From the NCBI GenBank assembly GCA_014621425.1, contig JAANBB010000007.1, positions 340,133-404,132 of the forward strand: a stretch of DNA of 64,000 nucleotides. Reading direction: 5' to 3'. Position 1 is the first letter of the stretch, and the number at the start of each line of letters is the position of its first letter. Under the pieces are notes generated by a model that saw only the letters and a program-made list of their open reading frames with translations, was not told the DNA's origin and searched no databases. The translations under genes and the position numbers were made by a program. This document shows positions 884 through 52,788 of the stretch, in pieces. Source of the stretch: Cylindrodendrum hubeiense. Taxonomy: Eukaryota > Ascomycota > Sordariomycetes > Hypocreales > Nectriaceae.

Positions 884-2497
884 ATGGCTCCCGTTTTCCT
901 CGAGTTGGAGGCGCCCAACGGCGTCAAGTACACCCAGCCCACCGGCCTCTTTATCAACAACGAGTTTGTCGAGTCCTCCAGCGGCCAGACCCTCACGTCG
1001 ATTGACCCCGCGTCGGTAACCCCCCCACCGTTGGCTTCATGTCCACGCCACTGACGGAGTAGACAGTACCGAGGAAGTCATTGCGACCGTCCAGGCGGCT
1101 GATGCCAACGATGTCGATAAGGCTGTCAAGGCCGCCAAGGCCGCTCTAAAGGACGCCTCATGGAAGCTTCTCCCTGCCTCGGACCGGGGCCAACTGATGG
1201 CGCGCCTGGCGGATCTCATGGAGGAGAACAAGGAGATTCTGGCAACCATCGATGCTTGGGACAACGGTATGTTCCATGATGGGTGTTTCCGGACGGGATG
1301 CTAACAGCCTGGGCAGGAAAGACATATGCTGAGGCCCTGGAGACCGATCTCGTCGAAGCTGTCGGCGTCATCCGATACTACGCGGGCTGGGCCGACAAGA
1401 CCTACGGCCAGACCATCAACACCACTCCCCAGAAGTTCGCCTACACAATCCGCCAGCCCATTGGCGTCGTCGCCCAGATCATCCCCTGGAACTACCCTCT
1501 GTCCATGGCCACCTGGAAGCTCGGCCCTGCCCTGGCTTGCGGCAACACCGTTGTGCTCAAGTCTGCCGAGCAGACGCCCCTCAGCATCCTCGTCTTCGCC
1601 GAGTTGATCAAGAAGGCCGGGTTCCCCGCCGGCGTTGTCAACATCGTCAACGGCCTGGGCCGTGATACTGGTGCTGCCCTCGTGCAGCACCCTCTTGTGG
1701 ACAAGATTGCCTTTACCGGCTCCACGGCAACCGCCGCCAACATTATGGGCACTGCGGCCAAGACCCTTAAGAACATTACCCTCGAGACCGGCGGCAAGTC
1801 ACCTCTGCTAGTCTTTGAGGATGCCGACCTGGATCAGGCCGTCAAGTGGTCGCATCTCGGCATCATGTCCAACCAGGGCCAGATCTGCACCGCCACGTCC
1901 CGAATCCTAGTACAAGATGGTGTTTATGACAAGTTCCTCGCTCAGTTCATCGACACTGTCAAGACGGTCAGCAAGGTGGGCAACCAGTGGGACAAGGAGG
2001 CGTACCAGGGCCCTCAGGTCTCAAAGGTGCAATACGACCGAGTGCTCGAGTATGTTGAAATCAGTAAGAAGGAGGGTGCAACTCTCGCTACCGGCGGCCA
2101 CCCCGTCAAGGTTGGCGACAAGGGCAAGGGCTTCTTCATTGCCCCCACGGTTTTCACCGATGTCACGCCCAAGATGCGCATCTTCCGAGAGGAGATTTTC
2201 GGCCCCGTCGTCGCCATTGTGCGATTCAATACCGAGGAGGAGGCGATTGCCCTGGCCAACGATACCACCTATGGTCTTGGTGCCGCTGCCTTCACCACTG
2301 ATTTAGAACGCGCCCATCGGGTTGCCGCTGAGATTGAGGCCGGTATGGTCTGGATTAACAGCAGTCAGGACTGCGACCCCAGAGTGCCATTTGGAGGTGT
2401 CAAGCAGAGCGGTATCGGTCGGGAGCTGGGCGAGGCTGGCCTCGAAGGCTACTCGCAGATTAAGGCGGTCCATGTGAACATGGGTAACAAGCTATAA
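884..2497 (+). CDS. NAD(P)-dependent aldehyde dehydrogenase
   Basis: Three exons (884-1011, 1067-1266, 1317-2497) join to a 502-aa protein, the usual size for cytosolic fungal ALDHs of the AldA/Ald4-6 type that oxidise acetaldehyde and other aldehydes to acids. Visible hallmarks are the cofactor-site PWNYPL, the FTGST glycine motif, the general-base Glu in LETGGKSP, the nucleophile Cys in GQICTA and the C-terminal PFGGVKQSG. Intron 2 (1267-1316) is canonical. Intron 1 only keeps frame if it starts at 1012 (gtcggt) and ends at 1066; the better-looking donor four bases on (gtaacc, 1016) shifts the frame. It converges on the ankyrin gene. Family assignment is very secure; the substrate is not. 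Confidence 0.95.
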
Positions 2498-2894
2498 AGA
2501 TGTAATCACGATGTGGATGATGCAAGAGTAGATTTATGACAAAATGATGTATTAGATTAGGATGACATGAAAGCACATCTGACCTTCTTCCATTCTGAGC
2601 CTATGTTAACTAAGTGATAGCGTAATCATCAAGACAATATATAACAAAGAAAATTGGCCCATCTGTCGATGGCCTACAATTATAGTCAAGTGATCTATGG
2701 AATCGGATTTACAAAAGAAAAGATATCGGACTCGTCTAGCCAGACGAAGAAGTGTTCAGCCCCCGACTCCGAGAAAGTTGAAACCGACCCTCCTACTCCA
2801 AATGTGCCAGTGGGCAATCATTATAGCAAGTCCCACATACGTCCTGTTCATCGTACAACAAAACGCACCAACGCCTCATACACAATTTGTCCAT
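2498..2894. other. Convergent intergenic region
   Basis: This A+T-rich 397-bp spacer separates the 3' ends of the ALDH and ankyrin genes. It should hold both 3' UTRs and polyadenylation signals. I see no gene in it. Confidence 0.7.
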
Positions 2895-5610
2895 TTATTT
2901 CTTAAGGCGGCCAGCGTAGAGAATCTCGACGGCCTCGTCCCAGCCGCGGGAAGCGGCAATCTCAGTGACGGTGCGGTTCAGCTCGTCGCGGACCTCCAGG
3001 TCGACGCCGGACTTCTCGGCGAGCAGGCGTAGGACGGACTCGTCGCCGTTCTCGACAGCCTGCATGATGCCGTTCCAGCCACGGTACAGCTTGTTGGGGT
3101 CGCCACCGTTTTCGAGCAGGAACTCGAGGATCTCGGTGTCGTCACGGTGCCTCCTCAGGGCCTTGACGACGGGCAGATGCTCGCCGGGGGAGTTGACATC
3201 GGCGCCGCCCTCCTTGACCAGGAAGTCGACAATGTCTCTGTGGTCCTCGCGGATGGCAGAGGTGAGGGGGGGAGAAGACTCCGCCGTTCTTGTCCTCGAC
3301 GGACACGCCGGCGTTGATCAGGAGCTTGACGGACTCCAGCTGGCCGGCGACGACGGCCATCTCCATGACACCCTTGAAGGCACGGGGCTCGGCGAGCACG
3401 GCGAGGATGCGCTTGAGGATGACGGGGTTCTTGACGGCCATGCACACGGGCCAGTCCTGGCCGCGGATGTTGGGATCCGCGCCACGGGCGAGGAGGACAT
3501 CGACCATCTCGATGCGGCCCTCGCGGATGGCGGTGGACAGGGGCGAGTGACCCTTGGGGGTCTTGTCGTTGGGGCTCATGCCCTGGTCCAAGAGCCAGGT
3601 CAAGGCCTCCATGTTGTTGACGCTGACGGCAGTCTCCATGATGCCCTTGGGCGAGCTCAGGTTGCCGCCGGCGGCGACAAGCTGGGGGAGGTACTGCAGA
3701 CGGTTGTGCGTGATGCACTTGAAGCACGGGTACTCGCTGGCGGGGACGTTGGGGTCAGCGCCGTTGCTCAGCAGCAGCTGGAAGAGGTCGCTGCGGTTGT
3801 CACGAATCGACGTGCACAGGGGGGTGTAGACACCGTCCTTCTTGGCGTTGGGGTCGACGCCGGCCTTGAGCAAGGCGCGGACCGACTCGATGTTGTTGAA
3901 GCTGGTGGCAAGCTCCATGATACCAGGGCACTTCTTGTGGTCGGCACCGTGGTCGAGGAGGGCCTGCAAGCAGGGAGTCTGGTAGGTGGCGGGCCACAGC
4001 ATGTGCTTGGGACCGGGCAGGTTAGGGTTGGCGCCGTGGTCAAGCAGGCTGTTGACAATGTCGACGCGGGAGTTCTGGATGGCCTCGAACAGGGCAGTCT
4101 TTCCCTCCTTGCTCTTTGCGTCGGGGTCAGACCCGTAGTCGAGGAGGAGATCGACGAGCTTCTTGGGAGTCTTCTTGTTGGTGGCAGAGATGACGAGGGT
4201 ATCGCCGCTGACGGTCAACTGTTCGGGGTCGCCGCCGTAGATCAACAGGAGATGCACCATGTTGAGCTTGTTGCCAATGCAGGCCTCGCCAATGGGAGTC
4301 TCGTGGAGGTCGCCGCCTGACATGTTGGGATCGGCGCCGTACTTGAGAAGAGGAACGGCAGAAGCAAGGGAGCCTCGGTCAACGGCAGCGAGGAGAGGAC
4401 CCATGCCATCGCGGTCGGCGATGTTGGGGTCGGCGCCGAAGAGAAGAAGGAGACGAACGCTCTCGGCATCGCCGTTGACGACGGCCTCCTTCAGGGCAAG
4501 GTGATCAGACCCAGTGTTGGGGTTGACACCACGGTCGAGGAGCTGCTCGACGAGCTTGTGGTTCTTGCCGCGAACAGCGGACAGAAGGGCACTCCTCAGG
4601 TTGGGGGCATCCGAACCGGCCGAGCTACGGGGGTTCCAGCGAGGCATGGCGGCGGGCTCGGCCTTTAGGCGGACAACCTTGGTGTTGTTGTTCAGCTCAA
4701 GACCGGCAAGCTCCTCGAGGCTGGCCTCGGCGCTGTCAGACATGCCCGAGTGAGATCGGGTCTCATGGCCCTCGTCGAAGGTGCTCATGCGGTCAAAGGT
4801 GGCGGTGGTGCCCGAGTGATATCGCTCGTTGGAGCTGACAGAGCTGGCCGTGTGTCCAGTGTTGCCGCTGTAGTGTCGTGTATCGGCACCAGGGCTTGTA
4901 ACTGAGTCTGGGTGCATGGACGAGGAGCGCTCAGTCCAGGGCAGAGGAGGCAGAGGAGGCTGCGAGCTATGAGAAGCGGCCTCGTGGCCCTCGACGCCTC
5001 GGTGCAGCGAGGCCGATCCGCGGCGGTATGTTGAGGCGTGATCAGATGTCTTGGCTCTGGCGGCGACACCGGCGCGGTGATCCATACGATCGAGGGCGGC
5101 GGCCAGACCAGTGTAGCCAATGCCCATCTCCTTCTCAATCTTCTCGTTGCCGAGACTCCACTGGAACATGAGGGCGCTCATGCGGAGGCTCTCGCGGGTC
5201 TTGCCGAGGGCATGGATCATCTTCTCGAAGTCGTGGTCACCGAAGATCTTGCCCCATCCGCGGCGCATGCGGCCCATGGTGCCCTTGCGCTCGTTCTCAA
5301 GGAATCTGGCGAGCAGCTGGTCGAGCAGCTGGAAGTCGGCCTGCGTAACACGGAACTTCTTGCTCAGCTCCGAGATGACATCGGAGGGGAAGGACTGCGA
5401 GGTGCGGATGCACTCGCCCAGGCCGGCTTCGATGGAGAAGAGGATCTCGCAGGTATCGAGGAAGTCGTGAGCGAGGGTATCGAGGCCGTGAGGCTGCTTG
5501 GTGACGGCGCTGAGGTACTCAAGCATGCGAATTGAGACTCGGTCGCCGACCGAGGTGGTCTTGTGGCAGAGCTCCAGACATTGCATCTGGGCCTTGCTAG
5601 AGTTAGCCAT
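2895..5610 (-). CDS. Ankyrin-repeat protein, frame broken once by a G/C homopolymer
   Basis: The first ~200 residues are helical and resemble the fungal N-terminal domains found on STAND and ankyrin proteins. A Ser/Thr-rich linker follows, then about a dozen ankyrin repeats recognisable by LLLxxGADPN-type cores. The ATG at 5610 (MANSSK) was chosen because a C-rich leader precedes it; an in-frame ATG at 5889 would add 93 low-complexity residues. The frame opens into nonsense at 3266-3272, a run of seven G on the + strand. Reading six G restores ankyrin repeats through to a TAA at 2895-2897, for about 904 aa. The total of 2716 nt is one more than a multiple of three, consistent with a single extra base. 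Whether this is an assembly error or a real mutation cannot be told here. It probably acts as a protein-interaction scaffold. Confidence 0.85.
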
Positions 5611-6084
5611 GATGGCGCTCTTCTTTGTGGTGAGCGTCCGGGTGGGCTGGGGGCTCCGAACAAGGGCGGGGGGGGAGGACAGGCTGTTTGGGGGAGACGC
5701 CTGGAGGTGGTGAGTCTGGGTGATGGGGGTGGTAGGGAAGGTGGGCGTGGTAGGCTGTGACTTGAGGCCGAGTGCTTCTTTGGATACCAAGGACAAGGAC
5801 TCTTGGGGGCCGAGAGAGAGAGCTTCGATGAAGGAGTATTCCTTGTCTACTACTCGATCTGTGCCCACAGTTAGGTGATTCTTGTTCATGCTGAGAGACA
5901 AGGACAGCTGGAGGGGACAAGGCTTCCTCTTTAGGGGGCGTAGAAACGCGGGAGCAGCAGACTTTATGGCGCTCGAGCGGCACTCGGCTGGGCCCAGCTA
6001 GATCCAGGCTGGTCGCTATGCTCTTTGCGCCCTCCTTACGGGGTCGATGGGGTCGGCGTCGAGGTGCTGGGCATCCCGACCTGC

Positions 6085-6155
6085 GTCTCATTGCGCCCAT
6101 TGTGCCCATTGCGTCCATGGCGTCCGTCCACTACGTGCGCCCACTGCGTCCACGG
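6085..6155. repeat. Degenerate 9-bp tandem repeat
   Basis: Units resembling TGCGCCCAT, TGTGCCCAT, TGCGTCCAT and GGCGTCCGT follow one another, then continue as CCACTGCGT-like variants. The repeat is imperfect and non-coding. Confidence 0.6.
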
Positions 6156-7553
6156 CGCACCCTGCGTCGTCCCTCCAGACCCTAGCTCGAGGCTTGGAGC
6201 TTAAGAGGGGAGTGGGTGTCGTCGCGCTTTGACAGGCTGCTGTGGAGATGGCGTCGAGCGTACTACGGATCGGCCGGGGCGCCAGTGGTACCAGTAGCTT
6301 GTCCTAGTGTCCCCAAGATCAGGAACCCACTTGGCTCCAGGATCGCCCACTGCAGGCCAGGGTGTCCCATGCAGCGATGCTAGAGCACGCTTTGACGACG
6401 GCATGCCGCTGGGAGCCCGCGCATCAGGACCCCCTGTAGCTGTGGTGGTGGCCGAGACCAGACGATGGCACCCTCGTATGGCCTATGTCACCCAGCGAGA
6501 GCTTCGACGCAACCCCACCCAGCGCAAGGTCCGAGCAGTATGGCAGACCAAGGCTCTGCAGGGACAAGCTCAGGACAAGCTCTCGCGGACTATTCCGCAT
6601 GGAGGCCTTCAGACACCAGCCGCTACGCGTAGTCGCTGTCGACGGGCGAATGGTGGGTGGTGAGGACGGTGGGAAGCGAAGGAGAGGGGGGGACGGACGG
6701 CCAGAGGGACGGCCAAAGGGACCAAAGGGGCCGGAGGGGCCATAGCCACCAGGAGAGATGCGGCAACAAGCCAAAGCGCAGCCTTCTGCACAATCCCATG
6801 TACATACAGGACGGGGGAGCGGGCGTGGACGGCCAGGCTCGACAAATGCCGATGCAGCCAAAACGCCAAAACACTAACCGGTACGACTGGGATCCCCCGA
6901 GTAAGACGGACGACCCAACGACGCTGTCGACGGCGTGTTACGCACGCGAGACGAGAGACATGGCTGGCAAGGCGCGCTGGGCGACTCCAGTCATCGGACG
7001 AGGGGCGCTGAGCAGTGTAATCAAAAAATGATCAATCGACTGGCCCAGATCGACGTGACTACCGAATAGCACCGATTGTGCATGGGGAAGCCGACGAGCC
7101 AGATCCGAACCGGGACGCGGACGTGGGCGGCTGGGCCACTTGGCTAGCAGCATCGCATCGGAACTTTTCACCATCGGAGCTTACGACCAGTCGCTTTTGA
7201 ATCGGCCACCCGAGACCACTGCTGAGGGAGCAGGGAACCCTCGGCCAGAGGAGACGCCCCCAAGGCAGGGCCAAGGGGGCTACAGGGAGGCTACAGGGAG
7301 GCACTATTGGATTGATACCCACCGGCCCAGATGCGCCAGCTGTGCTTGCCCAAGCCACAGACCGCGCCGAGCCAATGGCGTATCCAGCTGCTAAGACATT
7401 CTCATTCCCTGACCCGAAAGCCGGCGGCCCCTCAGAGGCGCGCAAGGTCGAGATCCTGGGGTTGGGCGGCCTCGTAGCAGAGCCAGGACCAGGTTCTGGT
7501 CCCAGTCCCAGGTCCCAGGTCCGGGGAGGGGTTTTCCCGTCACGCCGCCGTTA

Positions 7554-44593: not shown

Positions 44594-45537
44594 ATGTCTC
44601 TCAAGACCATCTTCTCCAGCATCGCAGCCCTGATGGCCACCGCTGTCATGGCCAATGACTCTATCCCATCCAGCGCTTTCGAGAGTGAGTTGATTTCGGT
44701 CGCGTTACGCTGGCTTGAATATTGAGAAAACTGCTAACACCGCCTTTCTTCAGACGGTGGCCGCGACGCTGCCGTTGCTGCTGCCCCCATGTACCATTTC
44801 GGCCGCTCCTGGGGCCGCGCCCCATGCTATCCGGAAGCTGCGGAGCATGGTGGCGTTCAAACGGATGGCGTTGACTCTGATCTATGCTTCTCTAGCCAGA
44901 ACGGAGGCTGCGCTGACCCTGGACCCTGGAACGGAGTCAACTCGCCTGGAAACCCATTCCCGGTGTACTACACAGTCCGCCAGTGCAACGATAATGAGTG
45001 GCGTGTCGCTTACAGTATCTACTTCAAGAAGGATTCTGGCCACAAAAGTGATTGGGAGAACTCCATCGTCATATGGAATGGTGATGGTAACGGACAGTGG
45101 GCTCGTTCTGCAACCCTGCTCGGGTTTCACAGCAGCTGGGACTACATCAAGTGGGACGAGATCCAAAACACCGTCAACGAGTATGTCTACCCATTATGAA
45201 AGCTAGTTACGGATCTTTCTTCGCCTGTCGCTCCGCAAGATCAACGACAACTGACATACGTAATAGCGATGATCTCTTCCTCCAGGGTGGTCAGAACCTC
45301 AACCACGCCAAGGTCTATCAGGGTTTCTTCTATCACGCGACCTTCTCGACAAGAAAGACGTCCCTCAACACCTGTGCCAATACTCGGGATGAGTTTCGAT
45401 CCTGGGACTGGTACTTCCTTCCTGGAGCAGACTGGCTCTATGATGGTGAGCTGATTCAGGACGGATGGGACTGGGGAAGCGCAGATACCAACCCGTCATC
45501 CCTTCGAAATGATGCCCGCTGGATCTGCAACCGTTAG
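44594..45537 (+). CDS. Secreted NEP1-like protein (NLP / NPP1 family)
   Basis: Three exons (44594-44684, 44754-45180, 45267-45537) close in frame to 262 aa, with a signal peptide of about 20 residues. The NPP1 fold is recognisable by its overall length and the position of the family heptapeptide. Here the heptapeptide reads GHKSDWE (45038-45058) instead of the family's usual GHRHDWE, so one of the metal-site residues differs. Cys residues occur in the N-terminal half, as in the longer NLP types. Family members are secreted; some damage plant membranes by binding sphingolipids, many are non-cytolytic. The changed motif makes activity uncertain. The gene is intact, with no stop or frameshift. 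It lies directly upstream of the HET-S-type gene on the same strand. Confidence 0.92.
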
Positions 45538-46028: not shown

Positions 46029-46898
46029 ATGGCTGAGATTTTCGGCACTATCGCTAGCGCTCTAAGTATAGCAAGTCTGTTTAACAATTGCGTCGATTGC
46101 TTCGGATACATCCAACTAGGCCGTCGATTTGGACGCGATTACCAAGTGTGCCAAGTAAGGCTCGATGTTGCCAGGATACGCCTGGGAAGATGGGGCGACG
46201 CTATAAACATCAACGCGGATTCTCGTTTTACTACGCCGTCGGCCGACGATATGCCGGCTGAGCTCGTTCGCTCCATCTTGGAAGAACTACTGCTTCTCTT
46301 CCAGTCCATCGAGAAGAGCTCCAGGAGGTACAAGTTGACCGCCGATCCACAGGATCTGACCCTGTTTGAAGACAAGGACATGAACCCGGTTTTTCGTGCG
46401 CTCCACGGAAAGCTGAGAGATCTGGCCAGTCAGAGACAGAGGAAGACAAGTTTGGTCAAGAAAACAGCGTGGGCACTATATGACTCCAAAAACTTTGAAA
46501 AGATGGTGGACCAGATCTCTGGCTTTGTGGAAGAATTGGAGAAGCTATTCCCGGTAGAGGGTGCCAGTCGCAAACTGTCTAAGGCTGATGTTAAGGAAAT
46601 TGACGACGATCAAAGCCTGGAAGCACTGAGGGATGCGGCGCACAGCATCGACACGATTATGGCGGATGCAGTAGAGCAGAAGATGGAAGCGACAAAGGGC
46701 AGCAATTATGTTGGGAGTATGATACTTAACGACCATGCAATGGCCCAAGTGGGCAATCAGTTTCATGACACAGTCCTAGTTCGCGGGATCGCCATCGCAG
46801 AGCAGACCAACAACTCTGTGCATACTATGACAGCTCAAGGAGGGTCAAGAATACAAGTTGGAAATCGGTATGGCGGTAAAGGACTCCTAGACAACTGA
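46029..46898 (+). CDS. het-S: HET-S-type protein: HeLo domain plus two-repeat amyloid prion-forming domain
   Basis: A single exon from ATG 46029 encodes 289 aa, the same length as Podospora HET-s/HET-S. Residues 1 to ~222 form the HeLo domain, beginning with a hydrophobic helix and LFNNCVDCFGYIQLGR. The C-terminus carries two amyloid repeats, R1 around HAMAQVGNQFHD (236-247) and R2 around GGSRIQVGNRYGG (271-283). Their VGN cores are 36 residues apart, as in HET-s. The tail ends GGKGLLDN. Residue 33 is Arg where the prion-competent, inactive Podospora allele has Pro, so this reads as an active HET-S-like death executor that permeabilises membranes when its tail is templated. The NLR downstream carries the matching motif. 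The frame is intact. Confidence 0.95.
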   Translation: MAEIFGTIASALSIASLFNNCVDCFGYIQLGRRFGRDYQVCQVRLDVARIRLGRWGDAININADSRFTTPSADDMPAELVRSILEELLLLFQSIEKSSRRYKLTADPQDLTLFEDKDMNPVFRALHGKLRDLASQRQRKTSLVKKTAWALYDSKNFEKMVDQISGFVEELEKLFPVEGASRKLSKADVKEIDDDQSLEALRDAAHSIDTIMADAVEQKMEATKGSNYVGSMILNDHAMAQVGNQFHDTVLVRGIAIAEQTNNSVHTMTAQGGSRIQVGNRYGGKGLLDN

Positions 46899-47500
46899 GA
46901 TATCTTTACATGGGTACAATTAAGAGTCACATGGATCCTTGGGGAGATAATTCATAATCATCATTCATTTGACAGTAACCAACTTGGCTGACTGATATGT
47001 GCTGGATTGTAAAACCGCGGGGTCTGGGCCGTGAATAATATCGTTCACATCCCTCTACAAGAAACAATGAGGCTCCAAAAACATGTATATTTCAAAGGAA
47101 CTAAATATTTATTCCGTGCCTACCTAGTTATGGCAGCTCAAGGCAGCTCGGTTGGGCGAGGCATCTATTCAAATGCGAGCTGCTCGAGAGCATGATCGAC
47201 TTTTCCTAATTGGGAATATTATGGGGTATTTCACACGCGTGACCCAATGGGCTTCAACGTGGATGCACAATTTCTGCTCTAACCTTCATCAACCAAAATA
47301 CTTCAGCTCATCCACACCCCTGTTTATCTTCTCATACCAATAATGTCATGCCACGTGTGGTTTGGTGGCTGAGGGATTTCTACTCCAAACACCGGTGAGT
47401 CATTGCCTTATCACAATTGATACTCTGGAACGCAACCCACACGAGGACATATCCAGCGCAAAGTGCAGCTGACTATCAATGCCATTACTCATGAACTAAT
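46899..47500. promoter_or_regulatory. Spacer between HET-S-type gene and NLR
   Basis: 602 bp in a same-strand pair. It contains an ATATTTAT-rich patch at about 47100-47115 and no gene. It should hold the HET-S terminator and NLR promoter. Confidence 0.6.
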
Positions 47501-50376
47501 ATGGGCAAAAACGTTGTCAATGCCATAACGGCAACCAACTCAGTGATCCACATTGGGGACAGCCATGGAACTGGAAGTAAGACCCCCACACAATCAGAAA
47601 CTGCTATTTGCCTGCTTTGCTGATCAGACATATAGCGTTTGTCGACACGGAAGCACTGAATCGAGGTAATTGGGAATCTCACGTGCTGCGTAGTCTCTCG
47701 TTTCAGTATATTTGGCAACGCCTAGATAGTATTCCTAAGGAATATGCACGCACGTTCAATTGGATCTACACGCCCCCTGATAAAACTCAATGCAGTTGGG
47801 ATAACTTTTCGGACTGGCTTGCAAAAGGGGACGGAATCTATTGGATTCAAGGCAAACCTGGCTCTGGTAAGCAGAAGCATTATCTATAATCTTTAATGAA
47901 TAAATGAGTGAACTCGGAAGTTTTATCATTTATTGACATGTAATAAATAGGAAAGTCTTGCCTTATGAAATACCTTTACGCTGAGGACCGAACAAAAGAT
48001 CTGCTCTCACAATGGGCCAATGGCACACCTCTCTTTACTGCTAGTTTCTTTTTTTGGTATCAAAAAACAGACCTACAAAAATCCCAAGAAGGTCTGCTGC
48101 GGTCACTTCTATATCAAATTCTCCAAGAGCAACCTTCTCTCATAGATGTCGCATATCCCGAAGCTTCGCAGAACTTCAAGATTCATGGAATTAGTGACAA
48201 TCTCACGGGACGGGCGAGCCTCTACAGGGCCATTTCTCGAGTTTTTGCGCACGAAATACCGACGAAATTTTGCTTCTTCATCGACGGTCTGGATGAGTAT
48301 GATGGCGACCATGCGGACATCATCGAGTTGCTCAAGGGCATCGTCGAATCTCCGAATGTCAAATTTTGCCTCTCTAGTCGGCCTTGGCCAATTTTTGAGA
48401 ACGCATACAGAGATCATCCAGGGCTTATCTTGCAGCACCTGACTCGAGATGATATAACTAGGTTTGTCAGAGAAGGCCTGCTCTCGAACGCGAGAATGGT
48501 GCAGTTGCAACAATCTGAACCTGAGCGAACTTCCTCCCTTGTTCAGAGTATAGTGGACAAATCCTCTGGTGTTTTCCTCTGGGTGAACGTGGTGGTTGCA
48601 TCGTTGCTTACTGGACTCGGGAACTCCGATGGTGTGGATGATCTCGAGACAAGATTACTCCAGCTTCCTCAAGATCTGGAAACTTTATACACATATCTCT
48701 TGGACCGAATTGACCCGATATATCTCCGTCAAGCTGTCAGATTATTTCGGTTTGTTCACACGTCCCAGAGGACATTGTCGTCACTAGAAGTTTCGATCCT
48801 TGATGAGTTTTGCAAGGACGATCAAATTGCGTCCCATGATATCAAGCTCATGACGAAGGCCGAAGTATCGTCAAGATGCAGTGCTGTCGAGATTAAGATC
48901 AGAAGCCGCTGCCTTGGTCTCCTGGAGTGCATAGACCGTCAAATGGATCCTTCAAAAGAAACAACCATGTATGACGACAGACTGTATCTCGAAAACTTGA
49001 CCGAGTATGCGGGGTTTACATCAGATCGTCAAGTGCATTTTATGCACCGCACTGTCAAGGATTTCTTTAACAAACCTGGTCGGTGGGATCAACTTCAGGC
49101 TCGGTTGGAGTCCCCCGAGCCAGCCTTCGCCACTTTGCGAGCCCTATGCTATTTAGCCGCCGTTGAACTCAAGCGTGTTTTCTTTGTGGAGCAATATGGA
49201 TCATGGGCATCTGCTTGCCGACCATTTTCAGCCTTGGCGAAAGAGTGCCTGGCACGCGCCGCAGAAATTGAACTCCAAACGGGCGAAGCTCAGACAGCGG
49301 CTCTGGATGACCTGCTGCAGACAGCCACGTTCCATTATGTTCGGGCTACACGAGATGCAAATGTGAAGACCTGGTGCCATACACTTCGCCCTAGCCTCCC
49401 TCAGAATCGGGCTAAAGAGGCTTTGTTTTCGGCGCTAGCCATCGAGTACGGCGCAGAGCGGTTTATAACGGCAAAGCTACGGAGTGGCGAATACACCTTG
49501 GATCAAAGAGACCTTCAGTTTCTCTTAGACCACGCAGTCCGCGGATCCCAAAAGCGGCCGAAGATGATCAGATTGCTTCTGGAGCAGGGCGCTGAAGTAA
49601 ATGACCTCTCTCTTGGGCAAAGTCCATGGCAACGCATGCTGGTTTACATGTGGAACTTAACTCGGGTTGAAAACAAAAGGGCTGATAAAGAATCATTGAA
49701 GCAACTTCACGAGATCCTAGAGTGCATGATTTTCCATGATGCTAACTCGAATGAAGTTTTCAATTACTCCTCAGGAATGACTGGAAACAATACCAACCGA
49801 TCCAGTTCATTCCCAGCACTATCTGTTTTGATACGTACAGGAAATGCGAGATTAGTGAGGCTTCTTCTGGACAGACAAGCTGATCCTAATTTCGAAGTCG
49901 ATGGCTGGACGCCCTGGAAAGAGGCGTTAGTCTATTTTAATCAGAGCGTGTCCATTATAGAGGACGATATGCAGGAATCATTTGCTGCACGGTGGCTGCA
50001 GATATATAAGCTCTTGCTCGAGAATGGTGCAAAAGCTACAGAATATGTTATGGTTCCACGAAAGGGAGCTGGTGGGGGAGAAACCAGGGTTCTTTCCATC
50101 CTTACTGTCATTCGGGAGATATTCTCAAAATGGGGCGAGGGATGGGAATCTCAGCTACTTGCTCTAATACCTCAAGGCGATATGTCTGAGCTCCAGCAGC
50201 AATTGAAGCCTCAACCAGTGGCACCGTTGCCACAAGCTCCGTCTGATCAAATTCCTGCTTCGAATACAGCGTCGTCAAAGCGCGAGCGTGAAAATGCTGG
50301 AAATCACAAAGAGCAGAGATGGAGGTTGGCATTGCGGCAAAAGATTGCAAGGGCTAAACAGCAGTTCGGCTCATAA
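47501..50376 (+). CDS. NACHT NLR with N-terminal amyloid motif (NWD2-like), ankyrin-like C-terminus
   Basis: Three exons (47501-47576, 47636-47866, 47951-50376) close to 910 aa. Exon 1 encodes a short tail, with NSVIHIGDSHGTG at residues 13-25, that aligns with the amyloid repeats of the adjacent HET-S protein (VIHIGDSHG against RIQVGNRYG). This is the R0 motif position of Podospora NWD2. A NACHT domain follows, with Walker A GKPGSGKS at 98-105, Walker B FFIDGLDEYDG at ~211-221 and a sensor region LSSRPW. After a winged-helix-like part, the C-terminus has ankyrin-like units at ~635-655, 722-760 and 786-805 (LLLEQGAEVN, LLLDRQADPN, LLLENGAKAT), not WD40 repeats. It probably senses a cue, oligomerises and templates HET-S into its amyloid, lethal state. 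Confidence 0.9.
47543..47576 (+). other. R0-type amyloid signalling motif in exon 1 of the NLR
   Basis: Codons for VIHIGDSHGTG are followed at once by an intron. Pattern: hydrophobic, x, polar, hydrophobic, Gly, Asn/Asp, x, aromatic/His, Gly, as in R1 and R2 of the neighbouring HET-S-type protein. Confidence 0.8.
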
Positions 50377-50776: not shown

Positions 50777-52788
50777 TTACCACACAGTGCCCTTGGTCTG
50801 CTTGCCCTCTCTCTCTTCGAGCTTTCGGACATTGATGTTCTTCCACATCAAAATGCAGCCGAGGCAGAGCGGGATGAAGCAAATACCAGTGATGACCATT
50901 TTTCGCTGAACATCTGAGTACGCATCGTTGATGGCATTTCGGATGTCGCTGCCAATTGGGTAAGACATCTGCACGGTGATATCACCGTAGATAGTCGCCA
51001 TCTGGTCCTTGGCGTCATCGGGTAGTCTGGCAAGGAGTTGCTCAGGGAAGATGTTGGTCCACAAACCGCCAGCGATAGCATAGCCCATGGCAGCGCCAAT
51101 GGAACCGAAGAGTCCGAACAGGGCGATGGACACAGCGATCTCCTGGTGAGTCACTGAAGACATGATGGCGAGCTGTGCAGTGAGAGCCCAGACACCACTG
51201 TAGGTACCATTGAACAGCTGGCACATAACGAGGTAGCCAACGTCGGAATCAGCAGTTCGGAATTTGATGAGCAGGCCGACACCGAGGGCAGCAAATGGCA
51301 GCATCGCAAAAGAAGGCCACTTGAAAGTTCCGAGGTAGCGAATTCCACTATAAAAGCGTTAGAGCAGGCCAATCGCACAAGGGAGATGAGAACTAACAGT
51401 CCAATAAATGGGCCGAGGAAGGACGACATCAAGGAGAAAGAGTTCAGAACGTAACCAGAAGTGGTGATGGTAAGGCTGTGAACGACTTGGAGGTAGGAAT
51501 AATAGTATGTATCCCAGCAGCTAATTTGATGATGATTAGCGGATGATGCGTGGCGACGCGGAATGGAGTGAAGTATACTCACAAGATAGAGCAGAACATG
51601 AGGCCGTAGACGAGGCAAGCGCCGAGAATGGTGCGGTCCTTGAGGAACTTGAAGGGGATGTAAGGCACGGGCGAAAAGTACTTCTCCCAGACTGCGAAGG
51701 CAGCGAGAAGGACAACGCCAAGGATGATCATGGCAATGATGTATCCAGTCTTCCAGCCGTTAGGTGCGTAGTAAACCAGGCTGAAGGGCAGAAGAAGCAG
51801 GGAAAATCCGAAGACGGTCAAAAACATGCCAACAACTAGAGCAGAGCAATTATTAGCAGGTAATTCTACAGAATGGAATTAACAAGTCGTGCATACCGTC
51901 AAATTGGACAAAGTAGTATTTGGTGGATTCCACAAAAGTGCGGTTCTTGGTCCTCTCGGGGTAAATGCCTTGAGCGACGGCCTTGCGCTTGCTCCACAGG
52001 AAGATCACGGCAACAGGGATGCAGAAGACGATCTGGATGATCAGGAAGGCGCCAAAGGCCCAGCGGAAGTTGACGTTGGTGTAGAACAGATCGGCAATCT
52101 TGGGGCCGGCAAAGGTGGTGGCGATGATGGGAGTCGAGTTCAATCCGAACAAGATCATTCGGTTCCGGAGACTGGTGATATCGGCCAGAATGATGGTGAT
52201 GATGTATCCCAGGCCCAAATGACCGACCCAGTAGAGGGTGTGGGCAGCGGCGTACATCTCGACGTTGTAGGATGTGGCCTTCATGATCATGCCGATTGTG
52301 ACGAGTAGGAGCATGAACAGGAAACCCTCGACTCGGCCCCAGATGTCAATGACCTTGGCAATTGTCAGGTTGCAAACACCGCCCATGATGGTGGCGACGA
52401 TGTTGGTGGTGGCCAGGAGACCGTGCTGGCTGAAGGAAGAGGTGATGTAGGCGACGAGACTGCCCTGGACGGACTGCAGCAGCTGGTCGGTGAAGGAGAC
52501 GAGGTAGAGGCTTGTTCATTGTTAGCATTTGGCAGGGAACAAATCCACGGACAATAGTACTTACAGGACAAACATGACAACAAGCACCTGCTTGGTCCAC
52601 ACGGTGGTGATGGCCTCGACTCGCTTGACACCATCCTGCTTGTTGAGGTCGTCGTCGTTGATCTCGGGCTTCTCATCATCGTGGACGTTGATGCCGTGGC
52701 CCTGGTTGGACAGCTGCTTCTCGATCTCGGCCGTGACACTGGGGTGGACCTCAGCGACGGGCTGGGTCATGGAGTTGATGTTGGCCAT
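50777..52788 (-). CDS. Siderophore-iron transporter (MFS, SIT/ARN family)
   Basis: Five exons (52788-52565, 52510-51897, 51835-51583, 51520-51398, 51347-50777) close to 594 aa, normal for 14-helix SIT proteins such as MirB, Sit1 or Arn. A hydrophilic N-terminus of ~65 residues precedes the helices. Family features include the VDIWGRVEGF loop, the YYAPNGWKTGYI segment, a hydrophilic last extracellular loop (PEQLLARLPDDAKDQMATIYG) that is characteristic of SITs, and the Lys/Glu-rich tail. It imports ferric siderophore complexes at the plasma membrane by proton symport. Four introns of 54-62 nt are canonical. An ATCTGATAA GATA element upstream fits iron repression by a SreA-type factor. The siderophore specificity is unknown. 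Confidence 0.93.

Follow-up and report, generated by a model that had tools for sequence, protein, structure and literature searches.

Diverged, almost uncharged motifs in a probable two-gene HET-S/NLR amyloid death switch of Cylindrodendrum hubeiense

Two adjacent genes of the fungus Cylindrodendrum hubeiense lie in a stretch of 64,000 nucleotides (nt; assembly GCA_014621425.1, contig JAANBB010000007.1, positions 340,133-404,132 of the forward strand), the whole of which is called the window below. The first encodes a HET-S-type effector of 289 amino acids (aa); the second, 602 bp downstream on the same strand, encodes a NOD-like receptor (NLR) of a predicted 910 aa in three exons (Table 1). 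A first-pass annotation of the sequence had described an intact pair of the kind formed by HET-S and NWD2 in Podospora anserina. The spacing and strand are as it gave them, and both reading frames are open.

The effector has the architecture proposed for it, an N-terminal HeLo domain followed by two amyloid repeats, R1 and R2. Pfam searches identified HeLo (PF14479) and, at residues 218-282, the prion-forming domain HET-s_218-289 (PF11558, E=4.3e-17). Both 21-residue repeats carry Asn at position 1, Gly at position 17 and the hydrophobic pattern, with one deviation, an Ala at R1 position 14, and the alignment places a spacer of 15 residues between them. Sequence searches matched the effector to the crystal chains of HET-s/HET-S (E 8.5e-81 to 8.4e-87) and to HET-s fibril chains (E about 1e-10). 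A database search found 141 homologues, the best sharing 58% identity over 98% of the query; among the named ones are many Sordariomycetes, for example from Fusarium, Trichoderma and Colletotrichum. The 120 listed homologues were used for alignment and charge counts; both repeats could be aligned in 102 of these, and the other 18 were dropped.

An AlphaFold2 model of the effector, built from 39 sequences, reached a mean predicted local distance difference test score (pLDDT) of 83. In Foldseek comparisons, its HeLo part resembles 2wvn, 2wvo and 2wvq (template modelling score, TM, by target 0.95-0.97; 54-57% identity), and its C-terminus aligns to the HET-s fibrils 2rnm (probability 1.00, E=0.057, TM by target 0.66) and 2lbu (probability 1.00, E=0.092). 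Since the predictor may have been trained on the fibril structures, the fold match of the C-terminus is supportive rather than independent. At HeLo position 33 the effector has Arg, a residue shared by 23 of the 102 aligned homologues; Pro, which the HET-s chain 2wvn has there, occurs in none of them. Position 86 is Glu, as in 54/102. The entry title of 2wvq names a D23A, P33H mutant, and positions 33 and 86 presumably matter for toxicity. Since position 33 is Arg and not Pro, and position 86 is Glu, the effector is expected to be a death-competent, HET-S-like form.

The NLR contains an NPHP3_N P-loop NTPase domain (Pfam E=4.2e-14, above its cut-off), a DUF7791 domain and weak ankyrin matches (Ank E=6.2e-5), and Pfam gave no WD40 match in it. 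The predicted second intron interrupts the P-loop, after its last G and before the KS codons. For exon 3, an AlphaFold2 model with a mean pLDDT of 84 has as its top Foldseek matches two STAND NTPases, 8bob_C (E=2.3e-4), which we take to be MalT, and 8dgc_B (Avs3; E=3.4e-4), at low TM by query (0.20 and 0.14; range 0.12-0.20). Lower-ranked matches include ankyrin chains of FEM1B, and CED-4. The top-scoring paralogue in the genome is 37% identical. Orthology with NWD2 was considered and rejected, the receptor having DUF7791 and weak ankyrin matches instead of WD40 repeats.

The exon structure at the 5' end was predicted from sequence. When one-intron GT-AG models leading from an ATG into exon 2 were enumerated (introns of 40-200 nt), eight were found; six lack consensus sites and were only counted, and two have both a consensus donor and a consensus acceptor. 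Of these two, the start at 47501 alone retains the SLxF stretch that the homologue consensus shows; with the alternative start at 47565 and its 130-bp intron the stretch is lost. Exon 2 contains no in-frame ATG upstream of the YIWQRLD codons.

The first exon encodes a candidate third copy of the repeat, R0. Profiles for R1 and R2 were built from 78 homologues whose repeats were cut by pattern, at least two of them wrongly (P0033, P0081). The R2 profile gives R0 23.8 bits if a one-residue deletion is admitted and 10.0 bits ungapped, so that the matching N-terminal motif of the first-pass annotation is present but one residue short. With shuffled sequences and NLR N-termini allowed equal gap freedom, the best of 6000 shuffles scored 18.5 bits (P about 2e-4 from a Gumbel fit) and the best of 120 N-termini of listed NLR homologues 9.6 bits, so that none reached the gapped score; many of these homologue records are truncated, however, or begin at another point. 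When the 912 open stretches of the window are ranked, only the effector stands above R0. The comparison was extended to 5678 open stretches from 40 loci, several of them overlapping, with a profile freed of the two mis-cut repeats (R0 = 23.2 bits). All stretches above 18 bits were HET-s-type repeats, namely those of the window pair, of two NLRs on contigs C1 and C2 and of a relic on contig C490, and the next-highest stretch scored 17.3 bits.

Scores from other settings are lower. Ungapped, R0 is equalled by 9 of 2000 shuffles with the R2 profile and by 55 of 2000 with a mixed profile; the R1 profile with one deletion gives 10.4 bits (17/2000 shuffles and 0/120 NLRs as high). R0 keeps Asn1, Gly17 and hydrophobic residues at positions 3, 6, 14 and 16, and R0 motifs of the canonical group are described as closer to R2 (PMC4518210). 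We regard R0 as a genuine HET-s-type motif, of the R2 kind but carrying a deletion. A different explanation, that such a motif is common to this NLR class, was rejected: no stretch above 15 bits occurs in the other DUF7791/NLR loci (L029, L030, L032-L038, cut 1500 bases from the match, so that some N-termini may be missed) or in the 120 homologue N-termini.

The layout resembles that of the HET-S/NWD2 pair of P. anserina, in which a HeLo effector with R1 and R2 adjoins an NLR bearing one repeat at its extreme N-terminus (PMC3321046; PMC4344463). That single repeat spans residues 4-23 in the window NLR and 3-23 in NWD2, and the 15-residue spacer between R1 and R2 is common to the window effector and Podospora HET-S. 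The Podospora genes are divergent, whereas those of the window share a strand; both arrangements occur in other species (PMC3321046). The comparison made by the first-pass annotation thus holds for the two-gene layout with an N-terminal repeat and fails for the receptor, which is NPHP3_N/DUF7791 with weak ankyrin rather than NACHT-WD. A receptor lacking WD40 repeats is not new by itself, since some NWD2 homologues have ankyrin or no typical repeats (PMC4344463). The window effector also shares with the HRAM1 (canonical HET-s) subfamily its repeat pattern, the HET-s_218-289 match and an adjacent motif-bearing NLR; such an NLR adjoins 98 of 155 HeLo-type genes with these motifs, the two-gene layout (PMC4518210).

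The pair also departs from these systems in its charge. R1 and R2 carry one charged residue each per 18 positions (2/36, 5.6%), against a mean of 23.4% in the repeats of the homologues. The sum over both repeats ranges from 4 to 12 in the homologues (median 9), and none of the 102 is as low as the window effector (z = -3.4); the minimum was also 4 in the pattern-based set of 78. The HeLo domain is ordinary in charge, with 42/102 homologues lower. Pairs of opposite charge between R1 and R2, of which 98/102 homologues have one to five, are absent here, as they are in 4/102. R0 has a single charged residue. The one pair-specific likeness observed between R0 and R1/R2 is their low charge, but in R0 alone it means little because R0 motifs are generally charge-poor: published fractions are 23.6% for HET-S repeats, in agreement with the homologue mean, and 12.7% for NWD2 motifs (PMC4344463). 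The unusual part of the pattern is the effector repeats, not R0. No charge-free HET-S was seen in the excerpts of the literature searched, though this does not prove that none has been published, and a full-text search returned no paper with both HET-S and DUF7791.

Taken together, these features suggest, with a probability of about 0.73, that the two genes form a HET-S/NLR amyloid death switch whose motifs are diverged and almost uncharged. The domains, motifs, gene layout and open frames are features of the sequence, and the HET-s-like fold of R1-R2 is that of the model. By analogy with Podospora, the pair probably works as the HET-S/NWD2 switch does, but with another class of receptor and with unusually uncharged motifs. 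In a mechanism drawn from PMC4344463 and PMC3321046, a ligand or cue sensed by the C-terminal part of the NLR would open the receptor, which would oligomerise through its NTPase and so cluster the R0 segments. The clustered R0 segments would adopt a stack of beta-solenoid rungs, onto which R1-R2 of the HET-S-type protein next door would be templated; the refolded C-terminus of that protein would then activate HeLo for membrane insertion and killing of the cell. With almost no surface charge left on the motifs of the pair, it would be the hydrophobic core and the conserved Asn and Gly positions, not salt bridges between R1 and R2, that support the stacking. The pair may serve immunity or the distinction of self from non-self, as the Podospora system would suggest.

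Domain matches were also sought in six frames across the genome, which has 47.5 Mb in 798 contigs; all counts of matches are lower bounds. At least 21 HeLo matches were found, some of which are pieces of one gene, and at least four matches to the prion-forming domain (E<=10), in the window and on C490, C2 and C1. The window copy is the only intact HET-S among them. On C1, a broken NWD2-like NLR has in-frame stops in its WD40 part, one of which a candidate intron could remove; its NACHT region is 24% identical to the window NLR over 336 aa. About 220 bp from it, in the divergent layout of Podospora, lies a HET-S remnant of 35 residues (2-36; 57% identical), and a 231-bp HeLo piece on C1 has a repeat-induced-mutation composite of -0.14, somewhat above the other relics. 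On C490 lie pieces of the C-terminal part of a HET-S gene, with WD40 fragments next to them. The NACHT-ankyrin NLR on C2 bears, close to its N-terminus, a HET-s-like motif that is canonical and charged, and C2 itself has no HeLo match in this search.

DUF7791 matched at least 20 times, and HeLo occurs with this NLR class both ways, in two genes (window) and in a single frame (C84). The C84 protein is an all-in-one fusion of HeLo with an NPHP3_N/DUF7791 receptor; in the window, by contrast, HeLo belongs to a protein of its own, to which the signal would pass by way of an amyloid motif. Each characterised two-gene combination has also been described as a single NLR (PMC5485727). A second amyloid pair, on C325, uses the Ses_B motif, for which one further genome match fell below the cut-off. 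In the window itself, a small, apparently spliced gene at 44595-45537, upstream of the effector, looks secreted by eye, and Pfam found nothing in the one exon piece scanned; downstream of the NLR, from 50777 to about 52790 on the minus strand, lies a major facilitator transporter gene (MFS_1 E=8.3e-11 for the piece 51856-52515).

Table 1. Features of the HET-S/NLR pair in the window and related loci elsewhere in the genome
Feature	Position	Strand	Basis or remark
HET-S-type effector gene	46029..46898	+	single exon, 289 aa, open frame
HeLo (pore-forming) domain, residues 6-200	46044..46628	+	PF14479 E=5.2e-55; Foldseek
Amyloid repeat R1, residues 226-246	46704..46766	+	PF11558, alignment, predicted strands 226-233 and 238-241
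Amyloid repeat R2, residues 262-282	46812..46874	+	PF11558, alignment, predicted strands 262-269 and 274-277
NLR exon 1 (predicted), start codon and R0	47501..47576	+	sequence prediction
R0, single HET-s-like motif, 20 residues (protein residues 4-23)	47510..47569	+	R2 profile 23.8 bits, one deletion
NLR intron 1, GTAAGA..ATATAG, 59 bp	47577..47635	+	predicted from sequence only
NLR exon 2 (predicted), pre-NTPase segment and P-loop start	47636..47866	+	sequence prediction, Pfam
NLR intron 2 (predicted), 84 bp, within P-loop	47867..47950	+	sequence prediction
NLR exon 3, remaining NTPase, DUF7791, weak ankyrin matches	47951..50376	+	Pfam, AlphaFold2 model, Foldseek
DUF7791 domain, residues 248-404 from ATG at 47965	48706..49176	+	PF25053 E=1e-19
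Broken NWD2-like NLR (R0, NACHT, WD40) on C1	L014 (G000:C1:10500-20000), 2284-6074		frame interrupted
HET-S relic on C490, stop in repeat region	L013 (G000:C490:42500-52000), ~4767-5710		WD40 fragments near, other strand
Open NACHT-ankyrin NLR frame on C2	L015 (G000:C2:127500-136500), 2541-5663		1006 aa from first Met chosen
HeLo and NPHP3_N/DUF7791 NLR in one 1047-residue frame on C84	L018 (G000:C84:9500-18500), 1684-4824	-	
Second amyloid pair on C325, HeLo protein and open frame, both ending in Ses_B (sigma-type) motif	L016 (G000:C325:17500-27000), 3958-4740 and 5590-6189	- and +	

Several observations weigh against a working switch formed by the two neighbours. The deletion in R0 falls in the middle turn, at position 11 of the motif, leaving it one residue short of the 21-aa unit. 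R0 also has Asn10, Val13 and Asp18, where NWD2 motifs conserve Gly, Arg and Asn (their conserved positions being N1, G10, R13, G17 and N18; PMC3321046), and without a gap it scores an unremarkable 1.5 bits by the R1 profile, a value attained by 522 of 2000 shuffles and by 15 of 120 NLR N-termini. In the effector, the Ala at R1 core position 14 occurs in 1/102 homologues, 95/102 having Val, Phe or Ile; the R1 score of 22.9 compares with a leave-one-out median of 40.6 (2/78 lower, one of them mis-cut), and its mean identity to the homologues is low (9/102 lower). A region search with residues 1-66 of the NLR found no relatives (five candidates, none at E<=10), and the 5' structure of the gene, modelled from sequence, may be more complex. 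Finally, the greater likeness within the pair than between species that the first-pass annotation had named as support for co-evolution did not appear. With likeness scored by BLOSUM62 over 18 positions, the effector's own R1 and R2 came only 29th and 32nd among 79 HET-S proteins as matches to R0, and the R0 motifs of C1 and C2 outscore that of the neighbour against both R2 (raw scores 50 and 43 versus 33) and R1 (25 and 24 versus 21).

These last comparisons are what would be expected if the effector works but is triggered mainly by another NLR, for example that on C2 with its more canonical R0, the R0 of the neighbour being vestigial. The window R2 ranks 4th of 79 for the C2 R0 and 8th for the C1 R0, the C2 frame is open on a contig free of HeLo matches, and signalling between motif-bearing NLRs and effectors of non-adjacent genes is suspected (PMC9815663). 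For R1, however, the order is reversed (C1 53rd, C2 68th), the C2 R0 has four charged residues, as does that of C1, against the one of the neighbour and the two of the effector repeats, and adjacency speaks for the neighbouring NLR as trigger. The C2 NLR is thus a possible second trigger of the window HET-S, and an unlikely main one.

The weakness of R1 and the deletion in R0 could alternatively mean that the pair is decaying, with the R1 of the effector and the R0 of the NLR losing the motif, a path already taken by other HET-S copies in the genome, where two further HET-S-type loci are broken. Against this, R2 scores normally (39.0; 22/78 lower), identity to the homologues is as ordinary for HeLo as its charge, and the repeat-induced-mutation indices are ordinary for both genes. 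Repeat-induced mutation was accordingly rejected as the origin of the odd repeats. With both frames open and with R2 and the indices ordinary, a diverged but matched set is favoured over early decay, which we consider very unlikely. A last reading, in which R0 arose by chance or is not translated, the NLR begins elsewhere and the two genes adjoin by accident, would suit an exon 1 predicted from sequence, the restriction to one-intron models, the alternative start at 47565 and the lack of relatives for residues 1-66, but it is highly improbable given the R2-profile score that no shuffle or NLR N-terminus reached, the SLxF stretch that this start would lose, and the expectation of just such a motif in a gene adjoining HET-S.

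The system found here is of a kind already known, and is a variant of it by its near charge-free effector repeats, shortened R0, DUF7791 receptor and the decayed NWD2-like locus elsewhere in the genome. A history for this variant can be offered tentatively, although we judge it more doubtful than not: after decay of the NWD2/HET-S locus, the surviving HET-S would have been rewired to a receptor of the DUF7791 class, and R0, R1 and R2 would have lost their surface charges together. The outcome would be an amyloid signal independent of the R1-R2 salt bridges that other HET-S proteins have, and shielded from the charged R0 that another NLR of the genome still bears.

In fungi, animals and bacteria alike, death signals are carried by amyloid motifs; which of their variants can cross-seed is an open question, and functional tests are called for in PMC4518210. 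A HET-S with two charged repeat residues, next to an NLR motif with one and in the same genome as a charged motif on another NLR, provides a natural test of whether specificity is set by salt bridges. In C. hubeiense, moreover, a HET-S effector adjoins a receptor of a class that also occurs in this genome with HeLo in its own frame.

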